From a virus, in the IMG/VR virus record IMGVR_UViG_3300046673_000306, positions 42,546 through 106,545 of that record: a DNA stretch of 64,000 bases. The stretch is one strand, 5' to 3'. The position numbers and the translations under genes are program-made. Of the stretch, positions 706 to 60,060 are shown one piece after another. Every line of letters starts with the position of its first letter. Position 1 is the first letter of the stretch. The notes under the pieces are model-generated. The model had not been told where the DNA came from. It did not search any database and worked only from the letters and a program-made list of their open reading frames with translations.

Positions 706-1017
706 TTACAACCGGCCCAGGCGCCGGTCCTGCTCCCTCTTGAACGCGAGTATCGACCGCAGGCCCTCCTCGTCCCAGAACCGGGGCCGCATCCGCTTGT
801 GGTCCTTGCCCTTGGCTCCCTGGGGCTTGCCCATGCGCCTGCCCTTGGGGAAGGCTGGGTCAGTCTTGTCCAGGCGAATGACGTAGCTCTGGCTCCAGCC
901 CACGATCCTGGCGACGTCGCCCGAGGAGTAGAGCTTTGTCTGCGGCTCCGGTTCCTCGGTCTTGGCGATCGCCTGCGCCAGGACCTGGCGGGAGACCGGC
1001 CTCACTTTGTTTTCCAT
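706..1017 (-). CDS. Small helix-turn-helix DNA-binding protein (MerR/AlpA-like)
   Basis: A 103-aa protein. Residues about 29-50 read as a helix-turn-helix of the MerR/excisionase type: a tyrosine-serine-serine lead, then GDVARIVGWSQSYVIRLDK. A basic wing-like stretch and an R-x-WDEEGLRSIL segment follow, as in small HTH_17 proteins. The ATG is preceded by GGAGG with a 4-nt spacer. It is the last gene of the leftward accessory operon. By family it probably binds DNA as a small regulator or excisionase-like factor. Control of the three promoters near 5 kb is a possible but unproven role. Confidence 0.6.
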   Translation of the reverse strand: MENKVRPVSRQVLAQAIAKTEEPEPQTKLYSSGDVARIVGWSQSYVIRLDKTDPAFPKGRRMGKPQGAKGKDHKRMRPRFWDEEGLRSILAFKREQDRRLGRL

Positions 1018-1029
1018 GGTACCTCCAGA

Positions 1030-1203
1030 TCAGGCTTCGATTTCTTCACGGTCCTGGACCATTAAGAACCCATCACAGCATTCGAGTCCGCAGGGACAGG
1101 CGGTCGCCCGCAGCCCAGCTTGTCGCATTTGAACCCTGGACAGCCTGCTCTTTTTAGAGAACTTGTCCAGGAATTGCTCCTTCGTCATCTTCGGCGACCA
1201 CAT
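1030..1203 (-). CDS. Small hypothetical protein
   Basis: 57 aa. The ATG at 1203 is chosen over an upstream GTG (1224) because AGGAGG lies about 9 nt before it. The N-terminal half is basic and helical. A cysteine cluster (C-P-C-G-L-E-C-C, near residues 40-47) could bind metal. The family is not recognised. It lies 12 nt from the HTH gene, in the same leftward operon. Confidence 0.6.
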   Translation of the reverse strand: MWSPKMTKEQFLDKFSKKSRLSRVQMRQAGLRATACPCGLECCDGFLMVQDREEIEA

Positions 1204-1230
1204 ATCACTGTCCCTCCTCGTCACCTATTA

Positions 1231-2007
1231 TCAGGATTTGCTCTCCGGACCCGGAAGCATCAGGACCGACTTGTGCTTGGCGATCGTCAGGGCGAGACGA
1301 TCCGGCGTCTTCGTGAAGTCCTGGATACGGCGGTTCAGCTCGGCCATAGCCATCATCAGGCCGTGGAAAAAGAGTGCGGCCTCGTCCGAGTATGGCATCT
1401 CCTTGGCGTCCTCGGGGAGGCTGAACGACACCCAGGAATTGAGGCGTTCTGCGGGGTTGTCGTGGCCGTGGTGGTCTCCGCCCTCCCCATAGTAGCTCTC
1501 GTAGGTGACCTCGGACTGGTCTCCCCAGGTCGTGGTGACCTTGAGGGAGGCCTCAGCCCCCACGGTGAGTGAGAAGCCTCCCTTCGATCGGTGGCTGGCG
1601 CAGTGTCCCCCGTAGGTCTTGTCTCCTATGCCATCCCTCCACTCGGCGCCGGGGTACCTAGCGTTGGGGAAGATGCGCCCTTCCTTATCCGTGGCGAAGG
1701 AGACGTGGGACTCGATGTTGTAGCGGATCACGGGGTCCTTAGTGACGGTCGGCTCCATGAAGGCCTCATGGGCCTTCTTCACGGCGTCCTCCAGCTCCTT
1801 GAAGGTCTCCATCCCAACCGTCTTAAAGAACCCCTCGCGGCACCGCCGCCGATTGTCGATTTTCCTCTCAGGGAAGGAGACCTTCAGCTTGTTTGGGACG
1901 TGGGCGTAGAAGGCTCCGGTGGCGCTGATCTCCACCGAGACCTTGAACTTGTCGACGGCCCCGGCGTCGTTCTTCGCGACGAACTCGACGTCCTTGAACT
2001 TGGGCAT
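1231..2007 (-). CDS. Hypothetical accessory protein
   Basis: A 258-aa soluble protein with no membrane segment. The ATG at 2007 is preceded by GGAG. The middle contains a glycine/histidine-rich stretch (GEGGDHHGHDN, about residues 175-185). The C-terminus is helical. No known domain was recognised. It is part of the leftward accessory operon, between two short genes. Confidence 0.75.
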   Translation of the reverse strand: MPKFKDVEFVAKNDAGAVDKFKVSVEISATGAFYAHVPNKLKVSFPERKIDNRRRCREGFFKTVGMETFKELEDAVKKAHEAFMEPTVTKDPVIRYNIESHVSFATDKEGRIFPNARYPGAEWRDGIGDKTYGGHCASHRSKGGFSLTVGAEASLKVTTTWGDQSEVTYESYYGEGGDHHGHDNPAERLNSWVSFSLPEDAKEMPYSDEAALFFHGLMMAMAELNRRIQDFTKTPDRLALTIAKHKSVLMLPGPESKS

Positions 2008-2010
2008 GGT

Positions 2011-2163
2011 CTACTCCGTCCTTTTTTCCTTGGCGATTAAAATATCCAATGGGTCCATCTGGTCTTTAGATAAGATTTTTTCAATTCTGCTCGTAATGAG
2101 TCTTGGTGCTCGGTACTCGGACCAGCCATCGATCCAGATGCCAAACTCTGGGTTCTCGAACAT
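2011..2163 (-). CDS. Small hypothetical protein
   Basis: 50 aa, starting with MFENPEFGIWIDGW. The ATG at 2161-2163 follows a weak AGTAGGA ribosome-binding site and lies 4 nt after the TAG of the upstream gene. It ends 3 nt before the next gene. A longer overlapping reading from 2310 would overlap the neighbouring gene and has an arginine-rich shadow-like N-terminus, so the short form is preferred. No known family. Confidence 0.55.
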   Translation of the reverse strand: MFENPEFGIWIDGWSEYRAPRLITSRIEKILSKDQMDPLDILIAKEKRTE

Positions 2164-2167
2164 GTTC

Positions 2168-2476
2168 CTACTCTTTCGACCACCCCGCCTGCACCAGCCT
2201 GATCCCCAGGTTGAGGACCCACATCGATGTTGGGCAGATCGTCCCGGGTTGCAGGCCATTGAGGTCGCGGACCATGGCCTCGGCCCAGCGCTCCTTCTGG
2301 TCGCGCTCATTGAGCCCCGCCCAGTGGCGCCACCCCTTCTTGTAGAGATCGATGATGAGGTCCTTCGCCCAGAAGGGCACCGTGCAGCCCTTGAAGCCCA
2401 TGTCGTGGCCCATCGCTTGGATGGCCTCCTGTAACTCCGCCCTGGTGGGCCCCGCCTTGATCTTGATGCGGTCCAT
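2168..2476 (-). CDS. Hypothetical accessory protein
   Basis: 102 aa, mostly helical and Trp-rich. The ATG is preceded by GGGAGG. It ends just before the 50-aa gene, fitting co-translation in the leftward operon. No domain recognised. Confidence 0.7.
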   Translation of the reverse strand: MDRIKIKAGPTRAELQEAIQAMGHDMGFKGCTVPFWAKDLIIDLYKKGWRHWAGLNERDQKERWAEAMVRDLNGLQPGTICPTSMWVLNLGIRLVQAGWSKE

Positions 2477-2496
2477 GGTCGCCTCCCTAGCGCCTC

Positions 2497-3072
2497 CTAC
2501 AACCCGGCCTCGCGCAGCGCCTTGCTGATCTCCTTGTTCTGCTCATCGGTGTAGCCCGTGAAGGTCTTCTGGTCTCGCTTCCATCCTCTGGACTTGACGA
2601 ACTCGTCCTTGAAGGCCTGGTACTTGGCCACGCGCTCGATGCGCTCCTGCTCGGCCCGCTGTTCAGCCGCGATCTCGGCGCAGACCTCGCGCTTGATCAT
2701 GAGGGGGTCGAGGCCCATGAACTTCATGAGGTGGTGGAGGGTCCCCAGGATCGTCCTGGCGTCGTCCTTGCCCACGAGGTTGTAGAGGTAGGCCTCGCTG
2801 AAGAAGGGCTGGTCCTCATCGCCCTTGCTGTAGCCGTCGGCGCTCTTGAACCCGCGCAGCGGCGGGGCCTCCAGCTTCAGGCGGAGGAGTTTCCTGAAGT
2901 AGGCCTTGGCGTCCTCGACCTCGGGGACGTACTCGGCGTGGGTGACGACGGCCTCCTTCGGGAGCGACCTCTCTACGCGCCGGGTGTCGTGGTTTAGGGC
3001 CGGATAGAACTCGCCGGGCTTCTCCCCCTCCATGGGGGGCAGCGGGACTTCGACGGTCAGTCTCATCTTCAT
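2497..3072 (-). CDS. Hypothetical accessory protein
   Basis: 191 aa. The start codon overlaps the stop of the upstream gene (ATGA), and AGAGGA lies about 9 nt upstream. The N-terminus is beta-like. The C-terminal half is highly charged and helical (about residues 125-190) and could form a coiled coil. No known family and no membrane segment. Confidence 0.7.
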   Translation of the reverse strand: MKMRLTVEVPLPPMEGEKPGEFYPALNHDTRRVERSLPKEAVVTHAEYVPEVEDAKAYFRKLLRLKLEAPPLRGFKSADGYSKGDEDQPFFSEAYLYNLVGKDDARTILGTLHHLMKFMGLDPLMIKREVCAEIAAEQRAEQERIERVAKYQAFKDEFVKSRGWKRDQKTFTGYTDEQNKEISKALREAGL

Positions 3073-3746
3073 GGTTTGGGTTCCTCTTTGTGCTCCAGCA
3101 GCCCCTGGGCGTGCTGGCGCAGCTGCTCCAGGCCGGTGCGGCGAACGGCGGCCTCGATGAAGCCGCTGACCTCAGCCTTGGACTCGGCCACGATCTCGTC
3201 GGCGCTGTCGTTGAACTGGTCCATGAGGAAGGTCATGTGACTCTTCATCTTCAGGGCGATCTCCGCCGTCAGATCGATGATCCTCTTCTTGTCGGCGGCG
3301 AGAAGGGACTTCTTCTTCATCAGGGTCTCGACCTCGGCGCCCATGGCGTCAAACTGCTTCTTCCACTTGGCCATGTCGGCGGCGAAGGTCTGCCTGATCT
3401 TCTCCGCGCGCATCGGGACGTTGGGTAGCGGCTCCACGGGCTTGCCCGCGAGAGCCCGGATCGTGCAGGGGGTCCCGGGACCGCTGTTCATGGTCGTGAT
3501 CATGGACGCGAACTGGGACTCGCTCATCATGACCTCGATGATGTGGTCGCGCTCGAAGTAGTGGTCATCGCCCAGATCGTGGACGACCTCGCACCGGCTG
3601 ATCTCCAGGCTGATCCCGCTGTGGTTGTCTACAGAGGACCCGAAAAGCCGGTAGGCGCCGCGAACCCTGGTTCCGCCAGCCGTCCAGCGGGCGATGCTGA
3701 TGAGGCCGTAGGCGGGGTGCGTCTCCGGCTTAGCGTTTGGGTCCAT
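3069..3746 (-). CDS. Conserved-looking phage protein of unknown function
   Basis: 225 aa. The N-terminal half is beta-rich with the pattern F/Y-E-R-D...IIEVMMSESQFA followed by MNSGPGTPCTI. This resembles a hypothetical family that I recall from unrelated tailed phages. The C-terminal half (about 120-215) is a long lysine/glutamate-rich helix, probably a coiled coil. A strong GGAGG lies 8 nt before the ATG. The start overlaps the upstream TAA. Function unknown. Confidence 0.72.
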   Translation of the reverse strand: MDPNAKPETHPAYGLISIARWTAGGTRVRGAYRLFGSSVDNHSGISLEISRCEVVHDLGDDHYFERDHIIEVMMSESQFASMITTMNSGPGTPCTIRALAGKPVEPLPNVPMRAEKIRQTFAADMAKWKKQFDAMGAEVETLMKKKSLLAADKKRIIDLTAEIALKMKSHMTFLMDQFNDSADEIVAESKAEVSGFIEAAVRRTGLEQLRQHAQGLLEHKEEPKP

Positions 3747-4093
3747 TACAGTGTCCTCCCATGAACTTTATCCCAACGTCTGACAACGGCAATCGCCCTC
3801 CGGGCCATTTCCTCACACGCGTCGTTGTCTGGACCAAGGTCCCGGCGCAGGGAGTCGACGACTAGGTCAGTGAGTGATTTTTTGATCCGCATTTTACTAT
3901 GAGCCTGGGCCCCCTCCGGATACTTCAGCAGTCCAAGACTCCTGAGGCACATCCGGCACGTGACCTTGCTCAGGTCTGTGGTCAGATACGGCGGGTTCAC
4001 CACGGATTGAAAACGATACTGCCACAGCCCACATGTGGGGACAAAGAGCTTAGGATTCGGGTGCTCGTATTTGAAGTGGATAGCATGGGTCAT
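3746..4093 (-). CDS. Hypothetical protein with CxxC motif
   Basis: 115 aa. The start at 4093 (MTHAIHF) is preferred to an upstream in-frame start at 4144 because GGAGG precedes it by 7 nt and it overlaps the upstream stop as ATGA. A Cys at about residue 20 and a C-R-M-C pair about 35 residues later could form a zinc site. The C-terminal half is helical. Family unknown. Confidence 0.65.
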   Translation of the reverse strand: MTHAIHFKYEHPNPKLFVPTCGLWQYRFQSVVNPPYLTTDLSKVTCRMCLRSLGLLKYPEGAQAHSKMRIKKSLTDLVVDSLRRDLGPDNDACEEMARRAIAVVRRWDKVHGRTL

Positions 4094-4389
4094 CGCCGCC
4101 TCCGTCCGTACTCCAGAATTTCTGGGCTGGCTTCCTTGATCCACTGATCGAGCGCGCGCTTGTTCGGGAATGTGCAGAAATTGGTGTGCACATAGTCGAT
4201 GCCGTTGAACCGCGAGGTCGTGGCCGATCCATTTAGGCGCATGATATCACGGATTAGGGAACCATCGGGGTCGGGCTGCACGACCTCGACCTGCCACTTC
4301 CTCTCGTAGTGGCGGGTCTTGCCCCAGAAGTCGACGCCGTTCTTGTTCGGTACGAGTTTGATCGCGGCGTGGCGGACGATGATTTTCAT
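4090..4389 (-). CDS. Hypothetical accessory protein
   Basis: A 99-aa basic protein ending in a run of arginines. Both ends are ATGA overlaps with its neighbours, a strong sign of a co-translated operon. No known domain. Confidence 0.68.
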   Translation of the reverse strand: MKIIVRHAAIKLVPNKNGVDFWGKTRHYERKWQVEVVQPDPDGSLIRDIMRLNGSATTSRFNGIDYVHTNFCTFPNKRALDQWIKEASPEILEYGRRRR

Positions 4390-4541
4390 GATCTCTCTTG
4401 GGCGTCCCTGGCGTCACGCTCTGCTCCAACCTCAGAGAAGTAGGGGCCGTGCCACGGCTCGGATTCGGTCGGAGATATCGGCCTCCAGAACCATCCTCTT
4501 TCATCGTTAAGGAATTCAGCCCAGGCCTCGATCTTTAGCAT
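4386..4541 (-). CDS. Small hypothetical protein
   Basis: 51 aa, beginning MLKIEAWAEFLNDERGWFW. It fills the gap between two larger genes exactly: its ATG overlaps the upstream stop as TGATG, and its TGA overlaps the downstream ATG as ATGA. This tight coupling is the main evidence that it is translated. An 85-aa reading in another frame (4,247-4,504) was rejected. No known family. Confidence 0.6.
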   Translation of the reverse strand: MLKIEAWAEFLNDERGWFWRPISPTESEPWHGPYFSEVGAERDARDAQERS

Positions 4542-4963
4542 CACACCCTCTCCCTAGCGATCGCCATGGCCAGCCCGTCTCTGGCCGGTCCCGTGATCCC
4601 GCACGCGTCCATGGTCACCAGGGCCTCGACGGCGGCCTGGAGCAGGGTCGGGACCTCTTGGCGAACGGTCGCGACGGCCACGGTCATGGGCGCGACGCCG
4701 GGCGCCTGGAGTTCTGGCAGGGCCCCGGGGACTGGGCGCCCAAGGTCGATGAAGTCGAAAACCTTCTCCACGTTCTGGAATTGGCAGCAGCCCTTGGTCC
4801 CGCGCTCGTCCAGGTACCAGACATAATTCCCGAATTGCGAGGCAGAGAAATTATATCTGTAGAATGAAGTCCCGCGCATGACCGGCGTCAGGCCCTGGGC
4901 GATCCGATCCTGGATCAGGCTCAGGGCCTCGTCGGCGCTCTCGATCTCGGGTTCCGTATTCAT
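4541..4963 (-). CDS. First gene of the leftward accessory operon, probably leaderless
   Basis: 140 aa from ATG 4961-4963. A TTGACA-N17-TACAAT promoter ends 6 nt before this ATG, so transcription should begin at the A of the start codon and no ribosome-binding site can be present. An upstream in-frame start (5041) would lie inside the promoter and is rejected. The protein has an acidic N-terminal helix, an aromatic middle and an Ala/Val-rich helical C-terminus. No family recognised. Confidence 0.68.
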   Translation of the reverse strand: MNTEPEIESADEALSLIQDRIAQGLTPVMRGTSFYRYNFSASQFGNYVWYLDERGTKGCCQFQNVEKVFDFIDLGRPVPGALPELQAPGVAPMTVAVATVRQEVPTLLQAAVEALVTMDACGITGPARDGLAMAIARERV

Positions 4964-4969
4964 AGTGGT

Positions 4970-4998
4970 ATTGTACCAGGTAATACTGATGCTGTCAA
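4970..4998 (-). promoter_or_regulatory. Leaderless sigma70-type promoter, leftward
   Basis: The -35 TTGACA is at 4993-4998 and the -10 TACAAT at 4970-4975, with a 17-nt spacer. The ATG begins 6 nt after the -10. The spacer contains TACCTGGTA, which is nearly palindromic, and an upstream GGGTC is shared with the two rightward promoters. Confidence 0.85.
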
Positions 4999-5057
4999 GA
5001 CCCGGGCCAGAATCTGGGCCCCGATCCGGTTGAGGTCCCATGTCCAGTTTTTGGGTC

Positions 5058-5086
5058 TTGACAAGATCAGTTCAACCTGGTACAAT
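5058..5086 (+). promoter_or_regulatory. Leaderless sigma70-type promoter, rightward 1
   Basis: The -35 TTGACA is at 5058-5063 and the -10 TACAAT at 5081-5086, with a 17-nt spacer. The ATG begins at 5093, exactly 6 nt after the -10. The spacer end ACCTGGTA matches the other two promoters. Confidence 0.87.
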
Positions 5087-5092
5087 ACTAAT

Positions 5093-5335
5093 ATGACTGA
5101 AACCAAGATCGACCTGGATCAGGACGAAGCCTACCTGATGAACGACGAGCTGTCCCGCCTCAGCGAGGACTACCATAGGGACGAGTCCGTCAAAGCAGCG
5201 GCCAAGGACTTACTGGCGGCCCTGAAGGGCCTCCTCTCGGACAAGTACTTGGCCGACCCGATCAACGCCGACAGAATGACCGCCGCCCGCCTCGCCGTGG
5301 ACAAGGCCGAGCCGTGGAGGAAACCGAGATCATGA
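5093..5335 (+). CDS. Small acidic protein, first rightward gene, probably leaderless
   Basis: 80 aa, helical and acidic at the N-terminus (MTETKIDLDQDEAYL). The ATG at 5093 is placed by the promoter, whose -10 ends at 5086. There is no room for a ribosome-binding site. A longer frame from 5030 would read through the promoter and is rejected. No family recognised. Its position right after an early-type promoter suggests an early gene. Confidence 0.68.
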   Translation: MTETKIDLDQDEAYLMNDELSRLSEDYHRDESVKAAAKDLLAALKGLLSDKYLADPINADRMTAARLAVDKAEPWRKPRS

Positions 5336-5348
5336 TTCCGTCTGGGTC

Positions 5349-5377
5349 TTGACAAGCTGAGTTCAACCTGGTATAAT
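5349..5377 (+). promoter_or_regulatory. Leaderless sigma70-type promoter, rightward 2
   Basis: The -35 TTGACA is at 5349-5354 and the -10 TATAAT (perfect consensus) at 5372-5377, with a 17-nt spacer. The next ATG is at 5384, again 6 nt away. It shares GGGTCTTGACAAG and AGTTCAACCTGGTA with the promoter at 5058. Confidence 0.88.
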
Positions 5378-5383
5378 ACTATC

Positions 5384-5506
5384 ATGACCATGAAACTGAT
5401 GACCAAGGAAATCCGAAACCGCATTCGCATGGGCCTGGGAATCGAGCGCGACCTGAGCTTCCGGCCCACGCCTCTGTCCAAGATCAAGTCCGGGGAGGTC
5501 AGATGA
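5384..5506 (+). CDS. Small basic protein, probably leaderless
   Basis: 40 aa, beginning MTMKLMTKEIRNRI. Its TGA overlaps the next ATG (ATGA), so translation of the larger downstream gene is likely coupled to it. It begins 6 nt after a TATAAT box. The N-terminus loosely recalls DUF2958 proteins, but the protein is far too short to assign. Function unknown. Confidence 0.6.
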   Translation: MTMKLMTKEIRNRIRMGLGIERDLSFRPTPLSKIKSGEVR

Positions 5507-6243
5507 ACATGGATGGCCAGCCGGTCCTGCCGGGCATGGAACCACTGCGCTACCAGATCGAGGACGCCGAGCACCGCCGGGACTACGTCCCGGTCCGGTG
5601 CGCGATCTGCGAGAAGGAGATGACGTACGACGAACACCAGAACGCGTCCTGCGGTGAGGAGGCCACCCAGTACGAAGGCGATCCGATCTGTGAGACCTGC
5701 TACTGCGAGGATGAGGCCGAGGCCACGTTAAGGGTCTTTGATGCGGATAACCCGGAAGGCGAGGGAGACTATGGAACCTCGATCTTCGAGATCGGGTCCT
5801 GCAAGAACATGACCGCTTGCGACGGCGACATCGGGACCTGGCGGACCAAGTGGGTGAGAACCGATGCCTGGCGCGGCTATATCGACCTGATCCCGCCCAA
5901 GGACTGGGCTCAGTTTCACTCCGACTGCTCGCTCATGGCCTCCGAGGACTCGGCGATGCTGGAAAAGTACGACGCCGCAGTACGCAAGGCCTTCATCGCG
6001 AAGGGCGTGCGGCTGATCCGGGCTGCGCTCAGGACCTCGAACTGCTGCTCCACTGGGGTCGATTACTTCGTCGAGAAGAAGTTCCTGAAGTGGGCGACTG
6101 CGGCGTCGCGCAAGCTCGCCGACGTCTTCCGGGACCCGGTCCGGTTCAATATGACGGCGATCACGGGCAAGGACCCGGCGAGCGCCGGGGTCGACGACTA
6201 CGTCGTGGCCGCGCTCGGGGCCAAGCTCCTGGGAGGGAAATAG
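5503..6243 (+). CDS. Hypothetical protein with cysteine-rich zinc-ribbon-like N-terminus
   Basis: 246 aa. Residues about 30-65 contain C-A-I-C, a further Cys, then C-E-T-C-Y-C, a spacing that suggests a zinc-binding module. The rest is mixed helix and strand with no recognised domain. GGGGAGG lies upstream and the start overlaps the preceding small gene as ATGA. It is probably an accessory DNA- or protein-binding factor, but this is inference from the cysteine cluster only. Confidence 0.72.
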   Translation: MNMDGQPVLPGMEPLRYQIEDAEHRRDYVPVRCAICEKEMTYDEHQNASCGEEATQYEGDPICETCYCEDEAEATLRVFDADNPEGEGDYGTSIFEIGSCKNMTACDGDIGTWRTKWVRTDAWRGYIDLIPPKDWAQFHSDCSLMASEDSAMLEKYDAAVRKAFIAKGVRLIRAALRTSNCCSTGVDYFVEKKFLKWATAASRKLADVFRDPVRFNMTAITGKDPASAGVDDYVVAALGAKLLGGK

Positions 6244-8787: not shown

Positions 8788-9378
8788 ATGACCGAGGAGA
8801 AGAAGGCCGAGATGTGGCTGAAGCGCCACACGTCTTACGACTGCGCGATCTGCGGCGTGGCCCACGAGCCCGCCCAGCGCCCGAAGGTGGAATATGGCAA
8901 GCTGACCAAGGCCCAGCGCCTGCTCTGGGACGTGGCCTCCACTTACGAGTACCACTCCCGCTTCGTGGTCGGGTCCGAGGAGGGTGAGGCCGTGAAGCGG
9001 ATCAAGGCCTGGCTGAAGCCCGGAGACACCGTCTACACCGTGCTCCGGCGCCGGTCGTCGTCCGGGACGTGTAGCCACATCTCGACCCTGGGGATAGAGG
9101 TCGAGGGCGGTAAGCCCCGGATCGTGGACTACACCTGGAACGTGGCCAAGATCGTGGGCTGGAAGATGGACCGCGACACCGGCGGGATCGTGATCAGCGG
9201 CGGCGGCATGGACATGGGCTTTCACCTGGTTTATACCCTGAGCCGGATCGTCTTCGCCAAGTTCCCGTGCATCGGCGGAGCCTGCCCGAGCAACGACCAC
9301 GTAAACGGCGACCGGAACCACGAGGTCGGCCACCTGCACAGCGATGGGGGCTACGCGCTGAAGCGCCAGTGGATGTAG
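8788..9378 (+). CDS. Conserved phage protein of unknown function, N-terminal CxxC
   Basis: 196 aa. GGAGGAG lies upstream of the ATG. It begins with a C-A-I-C pair. The core has the series KPGDTVYTVLRRRSSSG, then VDYTWNVAKIVGWK, then GGGMDMGFHLVYTLSR, and it ends CPSNDHVNGDR...HSDGGYAL. I recall this set of motifs from a widespread hypothetical protein of tailed phages. The role is unknown. The many His/Asp/Cys residues suggest a metal-binding fold. Confidence 0.72.
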   Translation: MTEEKKAEMWLKRHTSYDCAICGVAHEPAQRPKVEYGKLTKAQRLLWDVASTYEYHSRFVVGSEEGEAVKRIKAWLKPGDTVYTVLRRRSSSGTCSHISTLGIEVEGGKPRIVDYTWNVAKIVGWKMDRDTGGIVISGGGMDMGFHLVYTLSRIVFAKFPCIGGACPSNDHVNGDRNHEVGHLHSDGGYALKRQWM

Positions 9379-9388
9379 GAGGGGGACA

Positions 9389-9610
9389 ATGAAGCTACGC
9401 TATGTCAGGGCATCGGGGGTCAGAAGTTTCTTTAAGGAACGTGGCTTGCGTACATCGGCTGGGTTCCTAGAATCCCTAGATCGCGAGGTCTGCGAGATGC
9501 TGGTCAAGTACCAGGTCATGGCCAAGGCGGACCGGCGCAGGACTGTGCTGGCCTGCGATATTTCCCTTCCTGGGGTGATCGCTAAACTCAGTCGGGGGAT
9601 GCGCCGATAA
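9389..9610 (+). CDS. Putative bacterial-type single histone-fold protein
   Basis: A 73-aa basic protein with GGAGGGGG before its ATG. The order of elements fits the short bacterial histones of the Bdellovibrio type: helix 1 SGVRSFFKERG, the turn L-R-T-S, a long helix 2 (about residues 24-47), the loop K-A-D-R-R-R-T-V, then a short helix starting C-D-I. The 'G-hydrophobic-R-x-S...R-x-T-V-x-x-x-D-I' signature is the main evidence. It would dimerise and bind DNA, possibly the phage or host chromosome. It is the last gene of the rightward operon. An unrelated small helical protein is the alternative. Confidence 0.6.
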   Translation: MKLRYVRASGVRSFFKERGLRTSAGFLESLDREVCEMLVKYQVMAKADRRRTVLACDISLPGVIAKLSRGMRR

Positions 9611-47671: not shown

Positions 47672-48553
47672 TTAGAACGGAACGAAGGTGGGTTTGCCCG
47701 TGACGTTGATCCGGGAGCAGGCGCGGGGGTTGACCACCGCGATTCCCAGTTCCTCGTACACGACCCAGCCCAGGCGCAGGCGCTCGGGCTTGTCCGCAGG
47801 GATGACGTTGACGTCCTGGCGGATCGGGATCACGCCCGTGAACTCGGGCTCGGCGATGACCCAGATGGTCCCGCGCGGCACGATCTTGGAGACCAGGATA
47901 TCCAGGGTCCAGAGGTGGCCGACGAGGCCGGTCTGGAGGACTTCCCGCTGGGTCACGGGATCGAACTGATCCCGCCCGAACTTCATGAGGTCGGAGTACT
48001 CGGAGAAGTTCATGACGAACTTCCCGGGCACGAGGTCCCATTTCCCGATCTCAGCGAGGCCGCTGACCAGAGCGTCTCGGGTCAACTGGTTGGCCACGGT
48101 CGTCTCGGGGTTCAGCAGGTTGCTGGACCGATCGATGGCGTTGAAGACGTTCCGGTCTTCCTCGGCCATCAGATCGAGCTTCGCGCGCTGCTGGGCGCGG
48201 TCGATCAGGTTGTAGCGGCGCTCCTTGACCTGACTGAACCGCACCTGGGGGTAAGACACGATCTCCCAGGTCCCGACGGTGATGCGCTCGCCCTCCACGA
48301 TCGAGTCCGGCGCGGAGCCGCGCTTGGAGACCACGATCACGGGGATTTTCACGTCCTTGTCGTAAACCGGCAAGGCGCCCTGAGGCAGGGGGTCCACGAC
48401 GAGGAGCTTCCGTCCGATGCCTTGATAGTCCAAGGACAAGCGGATCGGGTTGGCCATGCTGCTGGCCAGCGCCATGCGACCGGCTTCGGTCTTCAGCGCT
48501 TCCTCGATCAGGAACTCCTTCTGCTCGGGGGTCATCGTTGCTTGTGCGTTCAT
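47672..48553 (-). CDS. Major capsid protein (HK97-fold type)
   Basis: 293 aa from ATG 48553, with GGAGGAGG 5 nt upstream, the strongest site in the region. Features of HK97-like capsid proteins: helical N-terminal arm, E-loop region with KIPVIVVSKRGSAPDSIVEG, spine helix (DLMAEEDRNVFNAIDR), P-domain with LVSGLAEIGKWDL, and late strands GTIWVIAEPEFTGVIPI. Flanked by a probable decoration protein. Length suits a capsid protein without a large delta domain. Confidence 0.82.
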   Translation of the reverse strand: MNAQATMTPEQKEFLIEEALKTEAGRMALASSMANPIRLSLDYQGIGRKLLVVDPLPQGALPVYDKDVKIPVIVVSKRGSAPDSIVEGERITVGTWEIVSYPQVRFSQVKERRYNLIDRAQQRAKLDLMAEEDRNVFNAIDRSSNLLNPETTVANQLTRDALVSGLAEIGKWDLVPGKFVMNFSEYSDLMKFGRDQFDPVTQREVLQTGLVGHLWTLDILVSKIVPRGTIWVIAEPEFTGVIPIRQDVNVIPADKPERLRLGWVVYEELGIAVVNPRACSRINVTGKPTFVPF

Positions 48554-48627
48554 GCTGACCTCCTCCTTCGATGCGCGGGCCACTGGCCGTCCGGGCCCGT
48601 CGCGGTGCGACGTCTGCGTCTGCGGCG

Positions 48628-52565: not shown

Positions 52566-54701
52566 CTACGCCAGGATGGCCTGCGCGATCCCCATGTCCA
52601 GGAGGTTGCTCACCTTCTGCCAGTCGCAGAGGCAGTTCTTGTTCAGCTCGGACTCGGCCTCGGCCAATATCTCGGCCATGCGCGCCTGGCCCTTGACCTT
52701 GCGCAGCGCCGCGATCTTCTCCAGGTGCTTGGCCTTGGTGTCGGCGCCGACGGTGACCCACGACTCCTCGATGAACTCGACGCCGCGATTGTCCTCGGCG
52801 GCGAGCACGTTCTTCCACCCGGTCTCGGGGCCGCTGTACTGCTGCCCCTTCCAGTTCTTGACATGGGGGCAGTACTCGGCCTCGTTGTGGGCGACGTTCG
52901 CGCAGATCGTGCAGATGGAGTAGGCGACGCGGCAGTTGTGGACGGCCATGCCGTTGGCCACGAAGGACTCGTCGCCTTCCACTTGAAGGTCGACGACTGG
53001 TCCGTAGTACTTGACGATCTCTTTGGACTTGATCGGTGTCCAGATGCACCCGTCCTGGATGAATTTGTTGTGGTGCGGCCTCTTGGGCTCCACTATGGAA
53101 ACCTTAGAGACCGAAGAGAGCTTCTGGGAATAGGTGCATCCCACGGCGACCTGGAACTCCACGGTGTCCTTCCTCACGACGGAGTTCTTGGAGGGCTTGT
53201 GCTTCAAGACCTGGATGTTCGCGATGATCCCGCAGCGCGCGAAGATGGACTGGGCCTGACGCGCTAGGACCTCGGAGGAGGTTGAGTAATAGACCATCCC
53301 CGTCTTGGTCTGGAAGCCGTCGCCATTGATCATGGCTCCGAGCATCTCCATCTGGACGGAGGGGTCCCAGAGGGTGACCTCGTTGGACAGTGACTTGGTC
53401 TTGGCGCCCCGGCCCGCATGGTCCGTGAAGACCTTGGGCCAAACGCGATCGTGGACCTCCAGGTAGAGGCCGTTCCGTTCCTCGCAGACTCTGGCGTGGG
53501 CCTCTTTGCCCATGACCTTCTTGCAGAGGTTGGCGATCTCCTCGGCGATCTTCCCCTCATTGATGTTGAGGGCGAACCCCACCCCGGACATCTTCCCGTC
53601 CTGGGTGATGATCCAGCCCTCGGAGATGTAGTAGCCCAGGAGGCGCGCGAAATCCTTGTTGGAGAAGGTGCTGGGCTTCACCTCGGTGGGGAAGGGGATG
53701 CCCACGTAGTCGCCCACCTTTATGTCTGCGGCAGAGACGAAATTCGGGGAAACTTCGCGGGGCTCCAAGAGAGCGGTCCTATTCCTTTGGCGCTCGTACC
53801 CCGATTCCTCCATCCGCTTCAAGTGGCGCTGGTGGCTCATGCGGGAGCGCCACATGTTCTGCTCTTTCCTTCTCTGGGCCGAGATGGACCAGATGGGGTG
53901 GTCCCCCGTGAAGACCGTGGCGGTGAGGCCCTCGGCCTTGATCGAGACGACGGTGCCCTCGATCTGGGAGACCTGCACCGCCTTGACGATCTTGGGGCGA
54001 CCGCAGTGGGTGACGACCTCGACCCCGGGGATCATGTGCCCGGCCATCACGGTCTCCCCGGAGGCCAAGAGAACGAGGGATTCGGGGTGGACGGCGCCCA
54101 TCGATACGTCTGTGATGTATCCGCTGTCGATGCCCCGGACCAGCATCGGGTCCTTGGTCCGGTCCACGGCGAGCAGGAGTTCGACGCCCTTAACCCGATG
54201 GTTCGGTACCGCGTCGAGGATGATGCCGACGGCGTCAGCGACCTTGGAGTTGTTGTGGTCCTTATAGTTGCCTTTCCCGACGAAGGTCTGGTACACGCTC
54301 TTCCCCACCATACTGCCCTCTCGGATCAGGCGCAGGAGTTCGGGCTCGTTGGCGTCGTCCTTGGAGCCCCAGCGGAAGAGGTCGCCGTTCGTGTTCGGCC
54401 AGTCCCCGTGCAGGCCCATGACCCGGTAGAAGCTGAACTCGGGGTTCATCGGGGCCACGCGCTGGACGTTGATCGCCTTCTTGTAGTCGTCGAGCAGGGC
54501 CGCGTACTTCTGCGGGGCCTCGGCGATCTTCAGACCGAAAGCGGTGCGCTCCACGAAGTGGTGCTCGCACCGGGGCCGGACAACGCCCGCCGTCCGGAAG
54601 AGGGCGCACTCGGGGCAGGAGCCGTCGGCGCGCTCCACGACCTTGCCGCCGAAGGACGCGTACTTCAGCCAACCGCCGCTGGGGAGCGCGATCTGGTTCA
54701 T
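52566..54701 (-). CDS. Putative prohead protease interrupted by an Ala1 intein
   Basis: 711 aa from ATG 54701 (GAGGAAA upstream). Spliced length would be about 324. The extein has the order expected of phage prohead proteases: an N-terminal CxxC (C29/C32), H149 in K-D-H-N-N, VELLLAVDRTKDPML, then IDSGYITDVSMG with Ser200 as the likely nucleophile. Its C-part has C-T-I-C...C-P-H-V, a zinc-like cluster. The intein (52,935-54,095) inserts two residues after the putative catalytic Ser. It would cut scaffold and capsid precursors. Confidence 0.7.
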   Translation of the reverse strand: MNQIALPSGGWLKYASFGGKVVERADGSCPECALFRTAGVVRPRCEHHFVERTAFGLKIAEAPQKYAALLDDYKKAINVQRVAPMNPEFSFYRVMGLHGDWPNTNGDLFRWGSKDDANEPELLRLIREGSMVGKSVYQTFVGKGNYKDHNNSKVADAVGIILDAVPNHRVKGVELLLAVDRTKDPMLVRGIDSGYITDVSMGAVHPESLVLLASGETVMAGHMIPGVEVVTHCGRPKIVKAVQVSQIEGTVVSIKAEGLTATVFTGDHPIWSISAQRRKEQNMWRSRMSHQRHLKRMEESGYERQRNRTALLEPREVSPNFVSAADIKVGDYVGIPFPTEVKPSTFSNKDFARLLGYYISEGWIITQDGKMSGVGFALNINEGKIAEEIANLCKKVMGKEAHARVCEERNGLYLEVHDRVWPKVFTDHAGRGAKTKSLSNEVTLWDPSVQMEMLGAMINGDGFQTKTGMVYYSTSSEVLARQAQSIFARCGIIANIQVLKHKPSKNSVVRKDTVEFQVAVGCTYSQKLSSVSKVSIVEPKRPHHNKFIQDGCIWTPIKSKEIVKYYGPVVDLQVEGDESFVANGMAVHNCRVAYSICTICANVAHNEAEYCPHVKNWKGQQYSGPETGWKNVLAAEDNRGVEFIEESWVTVGADTKAKHLEKIAALRKVKGQARMAEILAEAESELNKNCLCDWQKVSNLLDMGIAQAILA
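52935..54095 (-). mobile_element. Intein 1 (387 aa, LAGLIDADG, begins with Ala)
   Basis: Block A reads AVHPESLVLLASGETV, where most inteins have Cys or Ser first. Block B is TGDH (His268 of the precursor). LAGLIDADG motifs are LLGYYISEG and MLGAMINGDG. Block F is VVDLQVEGDESF. It ends AVHN followed by Cys+1. Boundaries follow from VSMG|A and HN|C, with extein rejoining as V-S-M-G-C-R-V. Confidence 0.85.
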
Positions 54702-54928
54702 AGGGGTTTCCTCTCGTTGGTGCTGCTGGGATTTATGATCATCCCGCACTTCGGGCAGAAGACGGTGCCGTCGGCGCTGGCCTGGGCCAGGACGCGGCAG
54801 TTCGGGCACGAGACGTTCAGTTCTGGGATCATAGGCTGGGCCTTGGACTTGGGGTCGACCCAGCCCGCCGCCGGATCGAAGCCCAGTACCTTTGACTCCT
54901 TCGGTGCTCCTTGCTTGATCATGCTCAT
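54698..54928 (-). CDS. Small zinc-ribbon protein
   Basis: 76 aa with C-P-N-C (about 42-45) and C-P-K-C-G (about 58-62), a classic two-pair zinc ribbon. The stop overlaps the protease start as ATGA. It lies between the MuF-like and protease genes and may be a small assembly factor. No strong ribosome-binding site. Confidence 0.65.
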   Translation of the reverse strand: MSMIKQGAPKESKVLGFDPAAGWVDPKSKAQPMIPELNVSCPNCRVLAQASADGTVFCPKCGMIINPSSTNERKPL

Positions 54929-54929
54929 A

Positions 54930-56693
54930 TCATTGCAGACCGTGGCGCTTAACCCACTCCTCGTGGGGCACGAACTCGCCGGTGTCCTGGTCCAGGAGCC
55001 AGGGGCTGGTCTCTCCCTCCATGAAGGTCTTGAGCGGGACGAACTCGTTGCGCTTCGGGTCCCACTTCCACTCGATGTCCGTCCACTGGTTCTCCTGCTC
55101 GGGCAGGCCCAGGCCGGGGCGCTGGCCCTCCGGGACGTCTCCGAGGTCCACCGGCGCCTCGGTCAGGCCGGGGTCGATGTCGCCGGGGGCGACCGTGACC
55201 TTCTCCGAGAAGTCCAGCATCTCCTCGGTCCGGTTGATCCGGAAGAGGCGGCACTCGCAGTTGTGCACCGCGATCCTGTTGGCGATGTAACTCTGCGACC
55301 CCGCGACGGAGATATTGTGGACCATGCCAGAATACGGAACCCTGCCCACTGACCTAAGCATTGAGACCACGCTGTTGGCCGCGACCAGGACTCTGGAGTT
55401 GGTGTGCGGGGGCTTACCGACCCGGTCCCACGACCACCTGTTGAAGTGGATCAGATAGTGGGGGAACTTTTTAGTTGATCCGGCCAAGCGATCCTGAGGT
55501 CCGGTGGGGGTCATGGTCTCGTTCATTAACACCGGGACGTGCAGGCGATCCAGCATCACGTACAGTTGGTTCGCCAACTGCTTGGAGTGAGTGGTGATGT
55601 ATATCCTCTGGGTCCTCCCGAGATATTTGTCCGAGAAATTCCGGTTGGATATGTGCCCGTCTCCCCGAATGAAGGCGTTGAGAAAAATTCTCTGTTTATC
55701 GATGGGCCACCTCATGGCCTCGGGTGCCATCTTCTTTTCACGCGCGCCGAGCCCGCCCAGTCCCATGAATATCTTGGTCCATTTTTTAGATGACCAGTAG
55801 ACCACCGTGGCGTGCCCGTTCTTCCTGATCGAGAGATGGCTATCTTGCTCCAGGCGGGAACACAGAGCCCCTATCCTATTCGCGAAATCCATCTCATGCT
55901 GGCCTATGGTGAAGATCAGGGCTATCCTCTCTCCGGTGCCCCTGTTGAGCCTCGTGCAACCCTCGGCCATCCAGTACCCAAATAGTTCCACCTGCTCGTC
56001 CGTTAGATCGCACCCAGAATTTCCTGACACCGTTGGGAAATAGACCTTGTCGGATACACCCCTTTTTCTCCGAACGCCTGCTTCGAGGTCATCGGCTGGG
56101 ACAAAATCCCAATCCGAGAACACAGTCCCGCCGGAATTAGCGTACTTCAAGTGGCCCTTCTGAGCGTAGACGCGATGGTTCGGTGTCAGCAATAGTTCCT
56201 TTCCGTCCCACGACAATAGGCTGACCAGGTCGCCCACGTATTTCCTCTTCGTCGTCCCCGTCACGAGGTGGGCCTCTCCGTCATGCCCAAGGACCGCGTC
56301 CCCTTTCCTGATGCTCTCTATCAAGCGAACAGAACCATCCGACATCATGATCTCCGTCCCCGGGGGCAAACAGTTGACGTGGCTCATCGTGTACTTCGGC
56401 GCGTTGTGCGTCATGTTCTGGAGCAGCCAGTCGATCTTGAAGCGCTGGCCGTCCAGGGCGAAGCACACGGGACAGACGCTACCCATCTCCTGCCAGAGCT
56501 TCTCATTCTGCCAGGGCTCGAAGCCGTAGCGCCACTCCACCTCGCGGAAACCGGCCTTGAGGAAGTCCTGGAGCACGAACGCGCTCATGTCGTCGCGGGC
56601 GGTCGCCAGCTTCCGGACCAGCACGGACTCGGGGAGCGCGAGCCGGATCGGCGCGCGCTCGACTGCCCTGTGCGGGTAGATGATCGGGTTCAC
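54930..56693 (-). CDS. MuF-like minor head protein interrupted by an intein, GTG start
   Basis: 587 aa from GTG 56693, which overlaps the upstream stop (GTGA). Spliced length about 216. The extein has the Mu gpF/SPP1 gp7-type core: C-P-V-C-F-A-L-D-G-Q-R-F (about 74-85) and, after splicing, M-S-H-V-N-C-E-C-R-L (family: H-P-N-C-R-C). The C-terminus is acidic and Pro-rich. The intein sits inside this last motif. Follows the portal, as minor head proteins usually do. Confidence 0.75.
   Translation of the reverse strand: MNPIIYPHRAVERAPIRLALPESVLVRKLATARDDMSAFVLQDFLKAGFREVEWRYGFEPWQNEKLWQEMGSVCPVCFALDGQRFKIDWLLQNMTHNAPKYTMSHVNCLPPGTEIMMSDGSVRLIESIRKGDAVLGHDGEAHLVTGTTKRKYVGDLVSLLSWDGKELLLTPNHRVYAQKGHLKYANSGGTVFSDWDFVPADDLEAGVRRKRGVSDKVYFPTVSGNSGCDLTDEQVELFGYWMAEGCTRLNRGTGERIALIFTIGQHEMDFANRIGALCSRLEQDSHLSIRKNGHATVVYWSSKKWTKIFMGLGGLGAREKKMAPEAMRWPIDKQRIFLNAFIRGDGHISNRNFSDKYLGRTQRIYITTHSKQLANQLYVMLDRLHVPVLMNETMTPTGPQDRLAGSTKKFPHYLIHFNRWSWDRVGKPPHTNSRVLVAANSVVSMLRSVGRVPYSGMVHNISVAGSQSYIANRIAVHNCECRLFRINRTEEMLDFSEKVTVAPGDIDPGLTEAPVDLGDVPEGQRPGLGLPEQENQWTDIEWKWDPKRNEFVPLKTFMEGETSPWLLDQDTGEFVPHEEWVKRHGLQ
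55260..56372 (-). mobile_element. Intein 2 (371 aa, LAGLIDADG)
   Basis: Starts at Cys108 (CLPPGTEIMMSDGSVRLIES, block A). Block B is TPNH (His173). LAGLIDADG motifs are LFGYWMAEG (237-245) and FLNAFIRGDG. Block F is GMVHNISVAGSQSY. It ends AVHN followed by Cys+1. All splicing residues are present. Confidence 0.92.
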
Positions 56694-57130
56694 TTGGCTG
56701 GGGGTTCCTGCTGCGGGGGCTGCTCCTGCCCGCCCTTGACCCCGGAGAGGTAGTCCATCAGGGCCTTGCCGTCCAGAATCTTCTCCACGTCCCAGGCCGC
56801 CGGGTCCTGGAGCACGCGGTTGATCAGGTCCTCGAACCAGGTCCGCATCCTGCGGTCAACCTCTGCGGCGTCGACCTGGGACCCGCGCTGGCTCAGGTAG
56901 TTGACCAGGGCCTGATACCGCTGTCCTGCGGCGTGGTCCGCCGGGGCCTTGGCGGTCTTGGCCTTGGCCATGCGGCCCAAGGACGCCATCTGGAGCTTGC
57001 GGTAGTCGAGGTCGGGGAGGTGGGTCTTCTCCGACATGAGGCCGGGGCGCAGGGCCACGTCCTCTGGGGAGCCGGTGCGCACGTCCTTGCGGTCTCCCGC
57101 GCCACGGTAGTTCTTGGGGTCGAAGCTCAT
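56690..57130 (-). CDS. Hypothetical head protein between portal and MuF-like genes
   Basis: 146 aa. GGAGG lies 4 nt before the ATG, which overlaps the portal stop as ATGA. The N-terminal half is basic and unstructured. A helical middle (about 70-125) and a Gln/Pro-rich tail follow. No family recognised. Possibly a portal-associated or internal head protein. Confidence 0.65.
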   Translation of the reverse strand: MSFDPKNYRGAGDRKDVRTGSPEDVALRPGLMSEKTHLPDLDYRKLQMASLGRMAKAKTAKAPADHAAGQRYQALVNYLSQRGSQVDAAEVDRRMRTWFEDLINRVLQDPAAWDVEKILDGKALMDYLSGVKGGQEQPPQQEPPAK

Positions 57131-60060
57131 GCCGCCTCCGGGAGTCCCTGACCGGCGCCCGCGCCAGGTATGGTCTCCGCCGCAGGCATGGGCGTGCCCG
57201 GGGTCGGGACCGTGGCCGCAGTCTCGCCCTCGCCGGGGACCGGTCCCTCACCGCCGCCGCTGTCCCCGCCGCCGCCGCCACCCATGGGCGGAGGGGCCCC
57301 GGCGCCGCCCGCCCCGGGCTTGCCTCCGGGCTTCATCCCCTGCATCGCGGCCTTCTTCTCCTCGGCCCTCTCCCGCTCGATCTGGCGCTTCTCCTTGCGG
57401 TAGTCCAGGCCCAAGTACGTGTAGAAGGTTTGCTTCGAGATCAGGCCGGTTTTGGCCATCTCCTTCATCAGGCCCTTCATCTGGACGTCGTCCTTGAGCT
57501 TCATGAACTCGAACTCGATGTCGGGGACGATGTACTCGTCCTCCCCGAGTTCGTTGCGGCGCCGGAAGTCCTGGGCGATGGCCACGGGCCGGAAGATCGT
57601 GTCCTTGATCCAGCGCGCCAGCATCTCCTGGCAGCGCATGTAGCGGTTGATCAGGACCTGGAGGCCGATCGACCCGGCGGCAAAGTTCGGGCCGGTGCCG
57701 CCGATCATGGCCTCGGAGCCCATGAGCGCGGCCATGATCTCCTCCCTGATCCACTTCGACTCCTGGTCGAAGGGGTGAATCTTCCCGGCGCTGGACACGT
57801 ACTCGACCGAGATCGCGTGGTGGTAGACGAACCAGGCGCTCAGGTCCTGGCTCAGCTCGTCGAAGGCCTCGCGCACCTGCGTCACGGCCTGCGGGTTCGC
57901 GGGCATGGTGTCAGTGCCGACCTTCACGAGCTTGATCGGGGTGATGTGGCGCTCGTACACCGCCTGCTGGACCCGGCGCACCAGGTCCTTGAAGATCAGG
58001 GGCTTGAAGGCCCGGAACATGATCGGGGTCCCCACGCTCTCGTACGGGCTCATCTTGTAGGCGAGGTGGCTGACCCGGAACTTGTTCAGGGGTATCTTCT
58101 CGCCGCGCGCGACGAGGTTGACCAGCTGCCCGTTCTCGATCTTGGCCAGGGCCTCGTAGAGTTCCTTGGGCTGGCGGCTGGCGACGATCCGCTTGAGGTT
58201 GTCGTCGGGGTCGAGCTTGAGGATCGGCTCACCGACCAGGGATGACTTCTCGACCTCGACGAAGTCGGGGTTGAGGAGGTTGAAGCCTGTCCAGATGCCA
58301 CGGTCGTCGTCCCACTCCCCGAAGGGGAAGACGTTGCCCAGCTTCCACCACTCGTGGCTGACGTCGCCGATAAGGTTGAGGCCCTTGATCACGTCGAAGA
58401 ACAGAATCTCGAAGAAGAGTTTCACCTTCTCGTCGTCGCAGACCAGGTGGGCTCCGGTCATCGGGAGGTCCGAATTGTGGACCACGATCGGGGCGCAGAA
58501 CGATCCGTCTTCGGTAGTTATGTCGTAGACGGTTCCGGAGAACTTTTTCTTCCGGACATCCCTGACCTTGACCAGGAATCCTCCGGGGGCCTCATGATAC
58601 GTCTTCCTAGGGGATCGAGCAGACTCATGCGCGATTCCGTAGACCTTGGGGAGCACCTCGGTCTTGGATGCGCGCATGTAATAGATAGGCTTTCTCTTCT
58701 GCCCGTCTTTCCTGGAGGTGATGGTCTTAATGGAGAACAGAAAACCCAGCCGCGCGGCCAGGACCTCCATTTGGTAGGCGAGAGTCCGCGACACCGTGTT
58801 GGACTTAACGCAGAATTCATCGGCCATGCAGCCGTCCCCATTGAGGTATCCGATCAAAAATTTCCTCATCCAGGACGATTCCCCATCCATGATCCACTGA
58901 GGCACTCGCTTGTTCTGTGCCCCGAGTCCAAATTCCGAGCAGAACCACTTGGACAGGAGACGCGAACAGACATAGACCTTCGCGCCGTGGGTCTCCTTGG
59001 TGATCATGACCTTCGGCTCCATCTTAAAAACCTTTCGGATCAATTCCGAGACCCTGGCGATATTATTGGGCTCGTGGGTACCTAGGCAGAAATAAATCGC
59101 GCCACCGTCGGAGTAGCCCTCGGCGGCCCACCACCCTCCCAACTCGCAGAGATCGTCATCGGCGATCACCTTACGAGGTATCCTGGACCCTGATTTTATA
59201 GACAAGATCGTGTCGCCCTGGACCTCCATCAGGCTCACCTTGTGAGACCTATCGGTTTGAGGGAAACCTACCCCTGTCTGATTGCGTATGGTCATGTCAT
59301 ATTTGACCGAGCGCTCCCGAATAAACTTGGAGAGGTCGAACTCCACCGCCTTATTGGTAGGAATTCGCTTGGGGAAGAACAGATAGTCTCCGGGCCTGAC
59401 ATCCTCGGCCCTAACCCAGGATGGTCCCCCGTCCGGCATCCATCTCCCGCAGTCGTTCCTGATCTTGCCGCACTTGTCCAAACGCGGCATGTGGTCCATA
59501 TAGCGACCGTGCACGACCCATAGCCCTTCGTTGTGGGTGACCTTCAACTCAGGTAGACAGAATGGCTTCACGGTGTAGAGAGTCCCGTCGTAGTGGTGGG
59601 ACTCCGCGTGCTTGACAACCTTGGCCCTGCCGTCCAAACCAGGTACCGAATCGCCCTCTTTCACGTCCTCAATGTTCACGACGTCGTTCATCGTATACAC
59701 TGCGGAACCGGCGGCGAAGCAGTGCATATCTATCACGGTCCCGACATAGCCATCCGTTTTATAAAAATGTCTCGCCCACTGGTCAATTTCCCGTGTCTTC
59801 GTCGGAAGCTGTAGGTTCAGCGCCTCGAACAGAGGGTGGTAGAACGACGGCGCCTGCCGGTGTAGGCCCGGCCTCATGTTCCCGAACTGCGACGCCATCT
59901 TCTTCATGCGCGCGCGGGGAATGTCCACGAGGGCGCTGCCGGTCAGCCCCGGGCTCACCGCGTTCTTGATCATCTTGAACTCGGCGTCCAAGTTGGACGT
60001 GACGAGACCCGACCCTTCAGGGGCGGGCACGCTCGCGGTCTTGTCGTTGGCGTCAGCCAT
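57127..60060 (-). CDS. Portal protein interrupted by an intein
   Basis: 977 aa; spliced length about 561. The extein fits a portal: N-terminal FYHPLFEALNLQLPTKTREI, D-G-Y-V-G-T-V-I-D-M-H at the splice site, wing/stem strands (LGNVFPFGEWDDD, DPDDNLKRI), clip-type helices MSPYESVGTPIMFRAFKPL and RRVQQAVYERHITPIKLV, and a Gly/Pro-rich tail. The intein (58,474-59,721) interrupts at H113|C114. It forms the DNA gate of the head. Confidence 0.82.
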   Translation of the reverse strand: MADANDKTASVPAPEGSGLVTSNLDAEFKMIKNAVSPGLTGSALVDIPRARMKKMASQFGNMRPGLHRQAPSFYHPLFEALNLQLPTKTREIDQWARHFYKTDGYVGTVIDMHCFAAGSAVYTMNDVVNIEDVKEGDSVPGLDGRAKVVKHAESHHYDGTLYTVKPFCLPELKVTHNEGLWVVHGRYMDHMPRLDKCGKIRNDCGRWMPDGGPSWVRAEDVRPGDYLFFPKRIPTNKAVEFDLSKFIRERSVKYDMTIRNQTGVGFPQTDRSHKVSLMEVQGDTILSIKSGSRIPRKVIADDDLCELGGWWAAEGYSDGGAIYFCLGTHEPNNIARVSELIRKVFKMEPKVMITKETHGAKVYVCSRLLSKWFCSEFGLGAQNKRVPQWIMDGESSWMRKFLIGYLNGDGCMADEFCVKSNTVSRTLAYQMEVLAARLGFLFSIKTITSRKDGQKRKPIYYMRASKTEVLPKVYGIAHESARSPRKTYHEAPGGFLVKVRDVRKKKFSGTVYDITTEDGSFCAPIVVHNSDLPMTGAHLVCDDEKVKLFFEILFFDVIKGLNLIGDVSHEWWKLGNVFPFGEWDDDRGIWTGFNLLNPDFVEVEKSSLVGEPILKLDPDDNLKRIVASRQPKELYEALAKIENGQLVNLVARGEKIPLNKFRVSHLAYKMSPYESVGTPIMFRAFKPLIFKDLVRRVQQAVYERHITPIKLVKVGTDTMPANPQAVTQVREAFDELSQDLSAWFVYHHAISVEYVSSAGKIHPFDQESKWIREEIMAALMGSEAMIGGTGPNFAAGSIGLQVLINRYMRCQEMLARWIKDTIFRPVAIAQDFRRRNELGEDEYIVPDIEFEFMKLKDDVQMKGLMKEMAKTGLISKQTFYTYLGLDYRKEKRQIERERAEEKKAAMQGMKPGGKPGAGGAGAPPPMGGGGGGDSGGGEGPVPGEGETAATVPTPGTPMPAAETIPGAGAGQGLPEAA
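58474..59721 (-). mobile_element. Intein 3 (416 aa, LAGLIDADG) in the portal
   Basis: Starts at Cys114 (CFAAGSAVYTMNDVVNIEDV). LAGLIDADG motifs are LGGWWAAEG and FLIGYLNGDG. Block F is GTVYDITTEDGSF. It ends VVHN followed by Ser+1. Block B reads T-H-N-E, so the usual TxxH His is Glu178, a notable departure. Confidence 0.9.

Follow-up and report, generated by a model that had tools for sequence, protein, structure and literature searches.

Three consensus promoters lie at the junction of two divergent accessory operons of the large uncultured phage studied here, and each of them ends exactly 6 nt before an ATG. If transcription starts on the A of that ATG, the resulting mRNAs would begin with AUG. 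The locus raises the questions of whether the ATG at the predicted +1 is a start codon and whether the promoters answer to a common regulator. Most of the phage mRNAs so far described as leaderless come, to our knowledge, from individual genes in temperate phages. The window, by which we mean the whole 64,000-nucleotide stretch that was analyzed, runs from base 42546 to base 106545 of a viral record of 106,545 bases; the remaining 42.5 kb were also searched.

Three extended -10 promoters lie 6 nt upstream of ATG codons

The window contains three TTGACA-17-TAYAAT promoters, at 4998(-) (P-left), 5058(+) (P1), and 5349(+) (P2), and exact matches to TTGACA-N17-TANAAT occur nowhere else in the 64 kb. 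The first-pass annotation had described one leftward and two rightward promoters of this form with 6 nt to an ATG, and our analysis confirmed both their positions and their layout (Table 1). In all three, GGGTC directly precedes the -35 hexamer, the spacer is 17 nt long, TGG extends the -10 element, and the distance from -10 to ATG is exactly 6 nt. Compared with the sigma-70 extended -10 pattern (TTGACA, 16-18 bp, TATAAT, TGn), they have 11 to 12 of the 12 consensus bases, a spacer of 17, and TGG; P2 matches at 12/12. The composite motif was found three times in the window versus 0 times in 100 dinucleotide shuffles.

Inspection of the sequence upstream of the P-left, P1, and P2 ATGs revealed no Shine-Dalgarno (SD) site. 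A sharp contrast with strong SD sites on the other genes, as drawn earlier, has to be softened. SD sites are real and common elsewhere in this DNA but are not universal, with an SD-preceded start near the conserved N terminus in 25 of 41 conserved open reading frames (ORFs) by a crude test.

Table 1. Promoter elements and genes of the two divergent operons (window coordinates)
Feature	Position	Strand	Description
MerR-like helix-turn-helix protein	706..1017	(-)	103 aa; far end of leftward block; candidate regulator
Leftward-operon conserved gene	2497..3072	(-)	60-62% identity in G003 and G005
Leftward-operon conserved gene	3069..3746	(-)	46-47% identity in G003 and G005
First leftward-operon gene (P-left)	4541..4963	(-)	140 aa; predicted leaderless
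P-left discriminator	4964..4969	(-)	6 nt, ACCACT; predicted +1 = A at 4963
P-left	4970..5003	(-)	GGGTC 5003-4999; -35 TTGACA 4998-4993; extended -10 TGG-TACAAT 4978-4970 (-10 TACAAT 4975-4970); ATG at 4963
P1	5053..5086	(+)	GGGTC 5053-5057; -35 TTGACA 5058-5063; extended -10 TGG-TACAAT 5078-5086 (-10 TACAAT 5081-5086); ATG at 5093
P1 ORF	5093..5335	(+)	80 aa; ATG = predicted +1 of P1; no SD upstream
P2	5344..5377	(+)	GGGTC 5344-5348; -35 TTGACA 5349-5354; extended -10 TGG-TATAAT 5369-5377 (-10 TATAAT 5372-5377); ATG at 5384
P2 ORF	5384..5506	(+)	40 aa; ATG = predicted +1 of P2
246-aa ORF	5503..6243	(+)	GGGGAGGT (SD) upstream; overlaps P2 ORF
Rightward-operon conserved small gene	9389..9610	(+)	In G005, first gene behind rightward 5'-AUG promoter

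The protein encoded directly behind P-left had no match in Pfam, PHROG, or NCBIfam and none with an E value of <0.001 among PDB folds, and no relative of it was found in named phages. On the rightward side, no homologue of the P1 ORF was found in contigs G001, G002, G003, and G005, and none was found for the P2 ORF, which likewise lacks an SD site upstream. The stop codon of the P2 ORF overlaps the start of the next gene by 4 nt (ATGA), which suggests that the two are translationally coupled.

The promoter cassette recurs in the record and in two diverged phages

The first-pass annotation had named the absence of further copies, combined with start sites elsewhere, as evidence against its reading. 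Outside the window, the record has two further strong copies with an ATG at 6 nt, one at 20168(+) and the other at 33186(+) (record coordinates), as well as a weaker copy, at 26388(+), with its ATG at 5 nt. One other GGGTC-TTGACA promoter outside the window, at record position 9220(-) (L007 9220-9080(-)), breaks the +1-ATG rule. Downstream of it lies a leader of about 100 nt with strong structure (z -4.4), whose arms could form a pseudoknot and for which Rfam has no match. T8 and then an HNH-like gene follow the leader; at the equivalent locus of G003, the HNH-like gene was not seen.

We found no DNA relatives of this phage among named phages. Contig G004 (3300046697_000351, 72 kb) is essentially 100% identical and represents the same phage. 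Two diverged syntenic contigs, G003 (3300038829_000269, 139 kb) and G005 (3300022173_000339, 62 kb), were located via the phage's own proteins. G003 shares about 70-80% nucleotide identity where it can be aligned, and most proteins of the two contigs are roughly 35-65% identical to those of the window. G003 has one cassette (L114:7332, GGGTC-TTGACA-16-TATAAT-AACGGT-ATG; spacer of 16, ATG at 6), heading the inverted leftward operon. G005 has a divergent back-to-back pair, one promoter at L141:15901(-) and the other at 15929(+), each 6 nt from its ATG; this pair sits between the same two operons, which are divergent as in the window. Kept across the three phages are GGGTC (GGGCC in one case), the -35, the extended -10, and the +1 ATG. 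The spacer sequence ACCTGG is not kept between phages; G003 and G005-left share GTTAGTCTGT.

Several other features emerged from these comparisons. Relative to the window's phage and G005, G003 has the whole leftward operon in inverted orientation (L114 7366-16098 versus window 706-4963). Unlike most other proteins, which have diverged far more, the major head protein (window 47672-48583(-)) has 94-95% identity to its G003 and G005 counterparts; its closest named relative is Bacillus phage G gp27, at 61%, a match that does not settle the host. The gene at window 62665-63978(-), kept in G003 at 46-49% identity, is related to polymerase-like domains of CRISPR/defence systems: its 437-aa product carries the mCpol domain (minimal CRISPR polymerase; PF18182, E 1e-20). 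Three window proteins, encoded at 54930-56693(-), 57127-60060(-), and 52566-54809(-), are much longer than their G003 counterparts. The first of these has Hint and LAGLIDADG matches (intein), and the insert in the second, the portal protein, suggests another intein. The G005 rightward early block contains a tRNA gene (L141 16855-16926), and the window contains none; no Rfam matches were found in the window.

The ATG at +1 as a probable start codon

An ATG stands at the predicted +1, 6 nt from the -10, in all eight strong copies of this phage group (8/8); these copies are related by descent, so the count does not amount to eight independent events and cannot be converted to a probability. For comparison, we took 80 control promoters that fit TCTTGACA-N14-TGGTAYAAT in arbitrary viral contigs. 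An ATG stood 6 nt away in five of them; other offsets gave a mean of 1.9/80, and none of the five ATGs began an ORF of at least 50 aa. The control set is more AT-rich (mean GC 0.41), a bias that if anything favors chance ATGs. A general enrichment of +1 ATGs behind consensus promoters across viral contigs was thus not seen. In this phage group, the +1 ATG was kept while the spacers diverged, which is best explained by selection.

Homology indicates where two of the genes start. Homologues of the P-left gene are present in G003 (L114:7966-8391) and G005 (L141:15242-15667), where they lie inside the operon with a GTG start overlapping the preceding stop. The start of the P-left protein, MNTEPEIESADEAL, aligns with these operon-internal GTG starts (MIDAPIQTADEAL in G003 and MTTQITTAAQAL in G005), which fall within 1-2 codons of the P-left ATG. 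Because the homologue starts in both phages coincide with it, we read the P-left +1 ATG as a start codon. The first gene behind the G005-left promoter likewise has a counterpart in G003, with protein starts of MNNDLGILLLDIGGLN and MDIGTLLLDIGGLN, respectively (the latter read from the DNA at L114:7791). It is thus well supported that the +1 ATG is the true start of these two genes, with the transcription start itself predicted from the 6-nt distance. Use of the +1 ATG as a leaderless start is likely for the 80-aa and 40-aa ORFs behind P1 and P2. The sequence of the cassette, its copy number, its conservation in two diverged phages, and the coincidence of the +1 ATG with homologue starts can be read directly from the DNA.

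At three of the eight strong copies, an SD-led start follows about 23-33 nt after the +1 ATG. In the 20168 and 33186 copies of the record, a second ATG, led by an SD site, lies 10-11 codons beyond the +1 ATG and in the same frame (AAAGGGAAGAGGAAA-ATG and GGAGGAGCT-ATG). At G005-right, an 11-codon ORF begins at the +1 ATG and, in another reading frame, overlaps the SD-led start of the conserved small gene. These three copies have the 5'-uAUG layout in sequence, that is, a 5'-terminal AUG with an internal SD-led start. A 5' AUG is sufficient for 70S loading, and in E. coli, 5'-uAUGs upstream of SD starts bind 70S ribosomes, with 30S subunits found at the SD start (PMC4965119). The proposal that the first accessory genes on both sides are translated from leaderless mRNA is therefore well supported for the P-left gene but is not general, since an SD-led start follows the +1 ATG at three copies. 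What is general is the 5'-terminal AUG.

These SD-led starts would also be expected if the +1 ATG were no start codon at all and were instead an initially transcribed sequence preferred by RNA polymerase, with translation beginning at the downstream SD sites. We consider this very unlikely. The P-left and G005-left genes have no downstream SD start, and homology puts their starts at the +1 ATG. Moreover, sigma-70 start preference accounts for a purine at +1 but not for TG at +2 and +3, and the control promoters only rarely have an ATG at that place.

Spacer similarity and a candidate regulator

The first-pass annotation had further proposed that the three promoters share a TACC-T-GGTA near-palindrome and are coregulated by one factor that reads the spacer. 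The near-palindrome is present in P-left, but P1 and P2 read CAACC-T-GGTA. As its TGG is the extended -10 element and its TA is the start of the -10, a candidate operator would be reduced to ACC and positions further left. Across the five strong copies of this phage, the 14-nt spacer (TGG left out) has a mean pairwise identity of 0.59 and the 6-nt discriminator has one of 0.68 (permutation P of about 1e-4 each), versus 0.30, not significant, for the 30-nt upstream and downstream flanks. Thus, spacer and discriminator are alike beyond chance, as coregulation would predict, but no inverted repeat common to the five copies was found, and the spacer differs between phages. Similarity of spacer and discriminator in the absence of similarity in the flanks fits an operator, and it equally fits the copying of a cassette of ~45 bp.

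Duplication of such a cassette within the phage lineage, with a spacer that has no function beyond spacing, is quite possible. It would account for the identity of the P1 and P2 spacers at 15 of 17 bases, for the end of the similarity at the cassette edges, and for the different spacers of different phages, although recent copying usually carries more flank, and the persistence of GGGTC, the extended -10, and the +1 ATG across diverged spacers argues that the cassette itself is under selection. Alternatively, the spacer could be an operator for one phage regulator that, bound between the -35 and -10 at every copy, turns the early promoters off. This idea is compatible with the cassette serving to make 5'-terminal AUG mRNAs and brings in a regulator besides; the most plausible one is the MerR-like product of 706-1017, with shut-off once enough of this last-gene product is made. 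MerR-type regulators bind between -35 and -10. All three phages have the gene for this protein at the far end of that gene block (G005 L141:8505-8858; G003 L114:15799-16098), and the model of the protein matches the MerR-type domains of HiNmlR, RacA, and SoxR with a Foldseek probability of 0.99-1.0, but with E values of 0.05-0.14; Pfam gave no match for the window protein and a MerR hit below the cutoff in the G005 homologue only. Its MerR-like model and its conserved place make it a plausible regulator candidate. The only notable inverted repeat, perfect and 9 bp long, covers the -10 of the G003 promoter (shuffle P of 0.005) and would suit an operator, whereas the five copies of this phage have no repeat in common and the near-palindrome is confined to P-left. 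As the spacer also changes between phages and the cassette could merely have been copied, we regard the operator as doubtful.

Similar cassettes in other, unrelated phages

Ten other viral contigs were searched whole, each chosen because it held a match, so that the results show recurrence and not frequency. In two of these, G007 (3300000115_000218) and G008 (3300045738_001581), the TTGACA-17-TATAAT-6-ATG promoter is repeated 13 times (L283 13435-19850) and 14 times (L284 6639-757), respectively, within about 6 kb. The cassettes are near-identical, with discriminators that are mostly ACACAC or ATACAC and an ATG at exactly 6 nt; there is roughly one per small ORF, and most lead straight into that ORF. 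The G007 terminase is related to those of T4-like phages. A scan of genome contigs for the cassette gave six matches in unrelated, mostly AT-richer metagenome-assembled genomes (Clostridia, Ruminococcus, Patescibacteria, and Aminicenantes), among which there was no phage relative or host clue.

Discussion

We think it probable that the three promoters are strong sigma-70-type promoters that drive two divergent accessory operons and start on the A of the ATG, giving mRNAs with a 5'-terminal AUG. Host RNA polymerase would most likely read them early in infection, P-left driving the leftward operon, P1 driving the rightward operon, and P2 acting as an internal restart. The mRNAs would be taken directly by 70S ribosomes. 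For the P-left gene, and probably also for the 80-aa and 40-aa ORFs, the 5' AUG would be the start codon of a leaderless message. At 20168, 33186, and G005-right, the 5'-uAUG may load ribosomes or may give rise to an N-terminally extended protein or a short peptide. Where transcription starts, that host sigma-70 is used, that this happens early, and that 70S ribosomes load directly are inferences; such loading has precedents in lambda cI and in the E. coli 5'-uAUG mRNAs. The predicted +1 could be off by a base or two, and short leaders also occur.

Counterparts of this layout are known. The PY54 cI and cro mRNAs were shown to be leaderless by rapid amplification of cDNA ends (RACE) (PMC4488713), and lambda cI is leaderless as well (PMC9031893). 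In those cases, as here, a phage promoter is placed so that the mRNA begins at the AUG start codon; they are, however, switch genes of temperate phages with defined operators, whereas the cassette described here is repeated, serves accessory operons of a large phage, and has no known repressor. The copies at 20168, 33186, and G005-right resemble the E. coli mRNAs in which a 5'-terminal AUG is followed by an SD-led start, but the E. coli 5'-uAUGs are scattered among host genes (PMC4965119), and those found here sit on a conserved phage promoter cassette. Leaderless genes of Deinococcus-Thermus and Actinobacteria also have a -10 about 12 bp before the ATG and no SD site (PMC12340547, PMC3160421). 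Those of D. radiodurans mostly lack a classical -35 (PMC12340547), in contrast to the near-perfect -35, 17-bp spacer, and extended -10 of the phage promoters. Cluster K mycobacteriophages have short conserved cassettes, SAS and ESAS, that are likewise repeated just upstream of start codons. Inverted repeats are part of the ESAS, which at one gene also contains a promoter; the SAS extends a ribosome-binding site, which the cassettes here do not have (PMC11373665). The G007 and G008 arrays repeat a cassette of the same form, but these belong to other phages, have about one promoter per small gene, and have mostly ACACAC as the discriminator in place of ACTATT. The cassette is thus a variation on known phage leaderless mRNAs and 5'-uAUG mRNAs, and the mechanism itself is not new.

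A more far-reaching reading is that unrelated phage groups have settled on a strong host-type promoter with a 5' AUG as their standard for early accessory expression, that the +1 AUG loads ribosomes even where it precedes an SD start, and that the MerR-like protein at the operon end silences all copies of this lineage through the spacer. Taken as a whole, this is unlikely.

In sum, accessory operons that are probably expressed early sit behind a conserved promoter cassette whose transcripts are expected to begin with AUG, and at least one gene in the window looks truly leaderless. The repeated, conserved combination of consensus promoter and 5' AUG suggests a dedicated design for early expression without a need for SD recognition, which could possibly help when initiation factors or the ribosome pool run short or are being manipulated. 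The cassette also provides a simple sequence signature for locating early accessory genes, and it gives the correct start codons of small early genes that gene finders may misplace. The layout suggests that phages have a so far little-described route for making their first proteins.
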